Shown here: in pieces, positions 30,719-48,973 of the stretch
How the letters are laid out: each line of letters opens with the position of its first letter
Position numbering within the stretch: the stretch's first letter is position 1
NCBI RefSeq assembly: GCF_024199985.1
Contig: NZ_JANARS010000005.1
Span: forward strand, 372,001 to 436,000
Source of the DNA: Nocardioides pinisoli
GTDB taxonomy: Bacteria; Actinomycetota; Actinomycetes; Propionibacteriales; Nocardioidaceae
Direction: 5' to 3'
DNA: 64,000 bases
Program-made: the position numbers and the translations under genes
The notes under the pieces: model-generated
What the model was told of the DNA's origin: nothing
Databases searched by the model: none
Seen by the model: only the letters and a program-made list of their open reading frames with translations

Positions 30719-31972
30719 GTGCCCTCACTCCGCGACGCCACGGCTGAGTCGCCGGCCCCGGTCCGGGCCGTCGCCAACGCCGTCGCGCAGTGGATCGACA
30801 AGCTGGGCGGCGTCTGGGTCGAGGGCCAGATCGCCCAGGTCAACCGGCGCCCGGGCATGCAGACCGTGTTCATGACGCTGCGCGACACCGTGGCCGACAT
30901 CTCGGTCACGCTGACCTGTCCCCGGTCGCTCGTCGACTCGATGAACCCGCCCCTCGTCGAGGGCGCCAGCGTCGTCGTGCACGCGCGGCCCAGCTTCTAC
31001 GCCAACCGGGGGTCGTTCTCCCTGGCCGCGCGCGAGATCCGGATGGTCGGCATCGGCGAGCTGCTCGCCCGCCTCGAGCGGCGCCGGCAGCTCCTCGCCG
31101 CCGAGGGGCTCTTCGCCGCCGAGCTCAAGCGCGACCTGCCGTTCCTCCCCGCCCGGGTCGGCCTGGTGACCGCTCCCAACAGCGCCGCCGAGCGGGACGT
31201 CCGCGAAAATGCGCTGCGACGCTGGCCGGCTGTGCAGTTCGAGGTCGCCTACGCCGCCATGCAGGGCACGCGCTCCGCCGCCGAGGTGATGGAGGCGCTC
31301 GACCGGCTCGAGCGCCACGCCGAGGTCGACGTGGTCGTGGTCGCACGCGGCGGCGGCTCGATCGAGGACCTGCTGCCGTTCTCCGACGAGGCGCTGATCC
31401 GGGCCGTGCACCGGATGCGTACGCCCGTGGTGTCCGCGATCGGCCACGAGCCCGACCAGCCGCTGCTCGACCTCGTCGCCGACGTCCGGGCCTCGACCCC
31501 CACCGACGCCGCCAAGCTGGTCGTCCCCGACATGGCCGAGGAGGTCCAGGGCGTCACGTGGGCGCGCGACCGGCTGCGCCAGGTGGTCACGCAGCGCATC
31601 GCGCGCGAGCAGGAGTGGCTGGCCCAGGTGCGCTCACGCCCGGCCATGGCCGACCCGCGCAACCTGCTCACCGCCCGCTCCGACGAGGTCGACGACCTGC
31701 TCGCCCGCGCCCGACGCACCCTCTCCCACCGCCTCGACCGGGCGAGCGACGACATCGGCCACCAGCGCGCGCGGGCCCAGGCCCTCTCGCCGCTCGCCAC
31801 CCTGCAGCGGGGCTACGCCGTGCTCCAGGACGCCGACGGCCACGTCGTCACGTCCGTCGCGCAGGCCGCGGTCGGCGCCGCGGTCTCCGTCCGAATCGCC
31901 GACGGACGCATCCACGCCACGACAGACCGCATCGAAGCAGCCACCCTGGTCGAGGAGGACCCCGATGAGTGA
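30719..31972 (+). CDS. xseA: Exodeoxyribonuclease VII large subunit
   Basis: Large subunit of ExoVII, 417 residues, which degrades single-stranded DNA from both ends in repair. The N-terminal OB-fold ([20 protein letters not shown]) is followed by [20 protein letters not shown] and the catalytic domain with [40 protein letters not shown] and [20 protein letters not shown], then a long coiled coil. The GTG start has a TATCCT hexamer six bases upstream. The stop overlaps the start of xseB by eight bases. Confidence 0.97.
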
Positions 31973-32174
31973 CGCCACCCCCGAGCAGCCGAGCTATGAA
32001 GAGGCTCGCGAGGAGCTCATCGAGGTGGTCCGCACCCTCGAGGCCGGCGGGACGACCCTCGAGGAGTCACTCGCGCTCTGGGAGCGCGGCGAGGCGCTCG
32101 CCAAGATCTGCCAGCAGTGGCTCGACGGCGCCCGCAAGCGCCTCGACGAGGCCATCGGCACCGACGACGACTGA
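31965..32174 (+). CDS. xseB: Exodeoxyribonuclease VII small subunit
   Basis: Small subunit of ExoVII, 69 residues. It has the typical pattern [40 protein letters not shown] and a C-terminal helix ending in acidic residues (EAIGTDDD). Several small subunits wrap the coiled coil of XseA. It is translationally coupled to xseA through an eight-base overlap. The tandem palindromic repeat follows about 24 bases after the stop. Confidence 0.96.
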
Positions 32175-32197: not shown

Positions 32198-32333
32198 AGC
32201 GGTGCGCCACGCGGGTTCCGCCGCTTGAGAACCCGCCTCGGCCACCGCTCGTACGCCGACACGCCGCGGCGCGCCGACCAGCGGTGCGCCACGCGGGTTC
32301 CGCCGCTTGAGAACCCGCCTCGGCCACCGCTCG
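32198..32333. repeat. Two perfect tandem copies of a 54-nt palindromic repeat
   Basis: Copies lie at 32198-32251 and 32280-32333 (period 82, spacer 28) and are identical. Each folds as nested arms: AGCGGTG with CACCGCT outside, GCGGGTTC with GAACCCGC inside, and a ten-base loop CGCCGCTTGA. They sit between the convergent xseB and DUF4245 genes, like a REP/BIME-type element, and could also end transcription in both directions. Confidence 0.85.
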
Positions 32334-32352
32334 ACGGTGCGGACCGGACGTC

Positions 32353-48896: not shown

Positions 48897-48910
48897 TGTC
48901 TGCTCCTTCA

Positions 48911-48973
48911 CCGGCAGGTACGTGCCGGACGATCCGTAGTGAAGTGACTGGGGTCACAGACCCCGGGGTCACA
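48911..48973 (-). promoter_or_regulatory. Palindrome and direct repeats upstream of the MsiK-type gene
   Basis: CCGGCAGGTACGTGCCGG (48911-48928) is palindromic at 16 of 18 bases. Further upstream GGGGTCACA occurs twice, 15 bases apart (48950-48958, 48965-48973). This gap feeds the ATPase gene; the sites look like regulator binding sites, but no protein is assigned. Confidence 0.4.

Follow-up and report, generated by a model that had tools for sequence, protein, structure and literature searches.

A REP-like family of near-palindromic 52-bp elements next to gene 3′ ends in Nocardioides, with inner stems that differ between species

The DNA analysed here (from here on: the window) is a stretch of 64,000 nt from Nocardioides pinisoli. 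Within it, the gap between two convergent genes, xseB and a gene for a DUF4245 protein, contains two copies of a palindromic element. The features of this region are:

30719..31972, + strand: large subunit of exonuclease VII (xseA, PF02601), located upstream of xseB
31965..32174, + strand: small subunit of exonuclease VII (xseB, PF02609), flanking the pair on the left
32198..32249: element copy 1, near-palindrome of 52 nt with 17 of 21 arm positions paired and an inner arm of class IV, GCGGG; 69.0 bits
32250..32279: linker between the copies, 30 nt, CGTACGCCGACACGC...
32280..32331: element copy 2, 52-nt near-palindrome identical to copy 1, 65.9 bits
32353..32895, − strand: DUF4245 gene (PF14030), right flank, convergent with xseB

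An earlier note on this DNA had described a tandem of identical, perfectly palindromic 54-nt copies with a period of 82 between convergent genes. The two 54-nt copies were reproduced at 32198-32251 and 32280-32333 with 100% identity and a spacing of 82, and so was the convergent orientation of xseB on the plus and the DUF4245 gene on the minus strand. The palindrome, however, is imperfect, as 17 of the 21 arm positions pair and positions 8, 9, 11 and 13 are mismatched. What is perfect is the identity between the two copies, and the natural unit is 52 nt long rather than 54. This unit consists of arms of 21 nt around a loop of 10 nt, with nearly invariant outer arms AGCGGTG/CACCGCT. The inner inverted pair GCGGGTTC/GAACCCGC occurs twice in the 64 kb window, both times here, and in 0 of 100 shuffles. 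The predicted fold amounts to −40 to −46 kcal/mol per copy, and folding was stronger than in shuffles for five sequences (z −3.0 to −4.3).

Rfam contained no family matching the window element or five further loci, and blastn gave no match to the window element among plasmids and phages. A 16-nt inverted repeat, 94% complementary, connects the xseB coding region (32027-32042) with the end of copy 2 (32330-32345). Elsewhere in the window, an msiK RNA (RF01747, 58.3 bits) is located at 48897-48955 on the minus strand. In four other species of the genus (G091, G012, G121 and G019; loci L098, L107, L081 and L103) the xseB/DUF4245 gap is filled by another, GGTCGAGGAGGGACGAAGTCCCGTCACGAGACC-like hairpin.

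The pair belongs to a large family. A similarity search of the N. pinisoli genome yielded 22 matches, the window's own among them. A covariance model built from 25 aligned copies (row L032:1498-1553 left out) gave at least 150 strand-wise matches at about 75 places. A matrix scan of 36 stretches, i.e. the window plus 35 around earlier matches, identified 83 copies spread over 40 loci, which is a lower bound for this genome; when the window and seven loci were reversed, the scan gave 0 copies. Exact 52-mers were detected in 54 of 215 Nocardioides genomes, although the reversed pattern gives 0-2 and some of these 54 are single chance matches; the N. pinisoli genome has 37 such copies and the maximum in another genome is 41. 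The earlier note had asked for a count throughout the genome and in relatives, and had stated that a lack of further copies in the genome would leave the pair as a local duplicated terminator. The identity of the window's two copies would fit such a terminator without relatives, but the copy numbers in this genome and in the genus make this explanation practically untenable.

Copy-rich genomes are mostly those nearest by their DUF4245 protein, G174 with 8 copies being an exception. Model R1 found matches in 19 of 59 sampled genomes. When a stricter pattern was applied to 294 genomes of the taxonomic family, 33 were positive, namely 32 among the 168 Nocardioides genomes and 1 among the remaining 126. 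In GTDB genomes, at least 106 matches were obtained; among the 80 loci listed, 78 belong to Nocardioides and 2 to Paracoccus / Mucilaginibacter. Relatives of the element occur almost only in Nocardioides. Related palindromes, partly nested, exist in G303, a member of another genus of the same family (L360, L364-L367), with an inner arm around CGTCC and a GCGGTGAGT-like frame; three of these five (L364, L365, L367) sit between convergent genes. Moreover, a miniature element, AGCGGTGGCTGACCCACCGCT, consisting of the outer arms alone, lies beside full copies in N. pinisoli (L013 ~1458-1480, C14:279.4 kb). Among the matches listed from the openly accessible literature, none names a comparable repeat in Nocardioides, and a text search of PMC2817692 gave no match.

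Shape and placement were surveyed at 201 loci, of which 36 came from the N. pinisoli genome, 59 from genus searches and 106 from the GTDB scan. These loci contained 388 copies, compared to 5 in reversed sequence; removal of duplicates left 368 copies in 184 clusters. The length is exactly 52 nt in 352 of the 368 copies, or in 350 of 360 once those classed as 'inside' are left out. The clusters occupy 99 convergent and 70 tandem gaps and no divergent one, while 7 were undetermined and 8 'inside', the latter being taken as chance matches after their sequences had been judged by eye. Divergent gaps thus account for 0 of 169 clusters versus 13 of the 58 gaps in the window, which comprise 12 convergent, 33 tandem and 13 divergent ones. 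Within the N. pinisoli genome all 40 loci are intergenic according to our own gene caller (22 convergent, 18 tandem, 0 divergent). The median distance from stop codon to element is 23 nt.

The distances between neighboring copies are likewise restricted. Spacing groups were found at 61.0 (18), 71.65 (37) and 82.57 bp (76) among 138 values, each distinct spacing being counted once per locus. Over periods of 6-20 bp, 10.8 bp fitted best (177 of the 184 spacings, R 0.85). Spacing follows the subfamily, with 83 in 48 of 51 I/III pairs and 72 in 15 of 22 II/IV pairs, so that the quantisation could stem from few founder units. The 82-83 spacing is kept in several orthologous arrays, and a linker motif akin to CGTACGCCGACACGC is, as judged by eye, common to many arrays spaced by 82/83. 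Arrays in the N. pinisoli genome consist of 1-8 copies. The longest array found there, C1:359541, is composed of four 151-bp pairs, with the first hairpin the same in three, and is flanked by what we take, from the reading of ORFs only, to be TctC-like and copper-ATPase-like genes. A link of the arrays to a special gene was discarded, as these neighbors gave no candidate enzyme.

We asked if the copies behave like DNA or like RNA. The arms covary: across 339 distinct copies, 788 two-sided changes were counted between them, against a shuffle mean of 430 and maximum of 471. For 25 copies of the N. pinisoli genome the result was mixed, with shuffles as high in 284 of 500 cases for paired cells, in 16 of 500 for the score and in 1 of 500 for pairs changed on both sides. 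An RNA helix is expected to favor G.U over A.C, as seen in nine tRNA-like predictions used as a positive control (G.U 13, A.C 0). On the sense strand of the 129 copies in tandem gaps, there were 130 G.U and 132 A.C pairs, with a cluster bootstrap 95% interval of −33 to +30 for the difference. For copies in convergent gaps, where the choice of strand is arbitrary, the counts were 189 G.U and 246 A.C (cluster sign-flip p 0.035), an imbalance indicating that copies are not independent. In 44 further 3′ inverted repeats, used as a matched control, mismatches were so few (G.U 9, A.C 4, p 0.27) that the comparison was underpowered. The equal numbers in tandem gaps, which are indirect evidence, are unlike an RNA helix. 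Because the cluster check revealed the wobble counts to be noisy, we marked down the reading as double-stranded sites and raised that as RNA hairpins.

As RNA hairpins, the copies would serve as two-way transcription terminators or mRNA 3′-end stabilisers at convergent and tandem gene ends. This would match their location beside 3′ ends only and close to stop codons, the strong folds and the presence of a differing hairpin in the same xseB gap of the four other species mentioned above. Clusters of hairpins, some without poly-U, have been proposed as terminators in the available part of PMC8355165. Nevertheless, we consider this explanation improbable. A sense-strand G.U excess is absent in tandem gaps, and the T-run of an intrinsic terminator is lacking next to the stems at either copy on either strand. 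Neither the exact 52-nt length nor the quantised spacing is needed for termination, the outer arms are nearly invariant, and 5 of 19 resolved relatives have merely a gap of 8-22 nt at the xseB slot.

For 28 loci, the flanking sequences were looked up in the genomes of four close relatives, and the gaps were read among the matches listed. At least one copy was present in 14 of 20 resolved slots in G202, 16 of 24 in G017, 16 of 20 in G030 and 16 of 21 in G071. The inner arms of these copies differ between the species. In N. pinisoli, 50 of 53 copies have a class III or IV inner arm, while class I prevails in G017 (24/25), G030 (26/27) and G071 (19/27) and class II in G202 (28/40). At base pair 16/37, N. 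pinisoli has G.C in 50 of 53 copies and the four relatives have A.T in 111 of 119 (24/25, 25/27, 22/27 and 40/40). The switch at this base pair is clean in 51 of 59 slot comparisons, and the contrast holds in both subfamilies. The counts of classes, base pairs and switches cover copies of exactly 52 nt at slots other than that of crgA. Among named species, six with 4-19 copies have A.T at 16/37 throughout, whereas G.C is found in 9 of 10 copies in Soil774 and in 5 of 10 in zhouii. Neither the G.C state nor the class III arm is exclusive to the N. pinisoli genome, as these two and G012 show.

Loops tell a different story from inner arms. When class IV copies of N. pinisoli were compared with class II copies elsewhere, loops in the same slot were more alike than permuted ones (0.645 vs 0.485, p 0.0002, 10 slot-species pairs), but the inner arms displayed no same-slot likeness (p 0.90). 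Since loop ancestry was kept while the inner arm changed, the II-to-IV difference arose in place. For class III vs class I, the loops (0.485 vs 0.421 permuted, p 0.0017, 28 slot-species pairs) come with a small same-slot excess in the inner arm as well (0.174 vs 0.158, p 0.03), and the in-place signal is modest. The comparison of class III with class II loops of G202 was borderline (p 0.06, 7 pairs). There was no loop ancestry between class IV and class I slots (p 0.26) and no same-slot ancestry of middle arms between N. pinisoli and G030 or G017 (p 0.53 and 0.16), so some slots may have been refilled. Change in place is exemplified by slots C1:685305 and C13:249745, whose loops and middle arms match or nearly so and whose inner arms are different. 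An exception is the copy next to crgA (CrgA, PF06781), with inner arm and loop the same in the four species read. Next to this copy in N. pinisoli (L067 ~2340-2470, C1:136.3 kb) there is a cluster of DnaA-box-like words, and related words occur in the same gap of three relatives.

The earlier note had compared the pair to REP/BIME elements, an interpretation that is partly supported. The copies indeed constitute an interspersed family beside gene 3′ ends, often in tandem or alternating arrays, and correspond to REP/BIME in the broad sense, being short, numerous, extragenic palindromes in composite, regularly spaced arrays. The fixed length, quantised spacing, shared slots and species-wide rewriting of the inner stem go beyond what had been foreseen. 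REP/BIME elements are described in the available part of PMC3733652 as palindromic, intergenic, near gene 3′ ends, favoring convergent and unidirectional gaps, and arranged in arrays; the element shares these features. It differs from tagged REPs in its 21-nt arms, 10-nt loop and spacings near 61, 72 and 83 bp, and in having no tag, as the GTAG and CGTC tags of the REP superfamilies were found at 0 and 3 of 718 element ends. A RAYT gene, for which the earlier note had recommended a search, did not turn up: none of the 30 genomes searched for PF01797, 16 of which have element matches, was positive, compared with 5 of 14 control genomes. The same source (PMC3733652), in its available part, states that CGTC REP families too lack a dedicated transposase and that REP-like families without terminal motifs are known in the actinobacterium M. 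tuberculosis and others; the element likewise has no tag.

The closest resemblance is to REPINs of Pseudomonas and others, for which the available text of PMC3116915 reports inverted conserved ends, a variable middle with compensatory changes and preferred spacings. The element is extragenic and dispersed, has preferred spacings as well and is an inverted doublet with a variable, compensating middle. Differences from REPINs are the lack of a Y1/RAYT gene in 30 genomes, the location beside 3′ ends only, a slot ancestry that is partly retained in the loops but not in the inner stem, which varies with the species, and the absence of a wobble bias in tandem gaps. We conclude that the family is REP-like and most like REPINs, but without two of their defining features that were looked for, the tags and a RAYT. 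With regard to behavior, the dialects of the Neisseriaceae DNA uptake sequence come nearest, a short genome-wide code that differs between related species and for which a match of the ComP receptor is expected, according to the available part of PMC3630211. The element differs from it by having at least 83 copies rather than thousands, by being paired within a 52-bp palindrome beside gene ends and by having no known receptor. In addition, solitary sites as in uptake sequences were sought and rejected: all 52 of 52 whole-genome matches to the class IV half-site (≤1 mismatch) lie inside elements.

The family is a clade-specific, REP/REPIN-like set of near-palindromes of 52 bp next to gene 3′ ends, either single or in arrays of quantised spacing, whose slots are often shared between species. 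For its cause, a selfish REPIN/MITE-like element must be weighed, in which single-stranded hairpins or 135-bp double units would be moved by a putative transposase other than Y1/RAYT; the dialects would then arise as the master copies of each lineage spread and displaced older copies in favored slots. The copies are interspersed and clade-specific, their architecture is REPIN-like (in the available part of PMC3116915), and the arrays may alternate as in C1:359541. Some orthologous slots are empty, with gaps of 4 nt in G071 (C1:55946) and 6 nt in G202 (C13:286726), and the lack of loop ancestry between class IV and class I slots also fits. A 2-nt repeat at the array ends exceeds the permuted number (62 vs 48 of 175, p 0.002), but may just mirror the palindromic CG ends. 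Longer target duplications among the 175 arrays were at or below the permuted level for k = 3 (4), k = 4 (1) and k = 6 (0), with 3 vs 1.1 for k = 5 (p 0.09) and 1 vs 0.03 for k = 8 (p 0.03). The search for PF01797 in 30 genomes, which addressed the RAYT family alone, was negative. The sharing of slots seems to be more common than random insertion would produce, and wholesale replacement would erase the slot ancestry of loops that is seen alongside changed inner arms for IV vs II and weakly for III vs I. We regard a selfish origin as a serious but unlikely explanation. Alternatively, the paired changes may have come about through ectopic conversion of a single arm, which then served as template for the other.

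We favor the reading that the copies are double-stranded sites for a putative symmetric, sequence-specific DNA-binding protein, with a rough probability of 0.45. A co-evolving reader would produce a pattern such as that seen, in which a few base pairs changed in a paired manner throughout the genome, within a fixed frame and partly in place. Such a reader would bind each copy as a dimer or higher symmetric assembly. The outer arms together with TTC/GAA would form the fixed frame and the inner base pairs 14-18 with 35-39 the species dialect. Upon a shift in the reader's specificity, this dialect would have been rewritten at almost every copy, in part at least in situ. With arrays phased at ~10.8 bp, the protein molecules would line up on the same side of the double helix where transcription units end, and the likeliest job would be architectural or at transcription boundaries, as a roadblock or supercoil sink. 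More tentatively still, the dialects may represent a chromosome-wide DNA-protein code, in which the predicted reader differs in its preference at 16/37 and neighboring positions, and paired mutations brought almost every site of two subfamilies into line with it.

The usual explanations of REPs, RAYT transposases or an RNA function, both fit poorly here, since orthologous sites have often been retained, together with their frame and spacing, and the inner code is species-wide. The five-base-pair inner code differs genome-wide between species for which the listed single gene-end flanks are 86-100% identical. If our reading is correct, this would be a dialect switch as in uptake sequences, but within a fixed, phased architectural site. 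The element family is a possible marker for a Nocardioides clade, and its two ready-made dialects open the question of what reads such repeats to direct binding assays.
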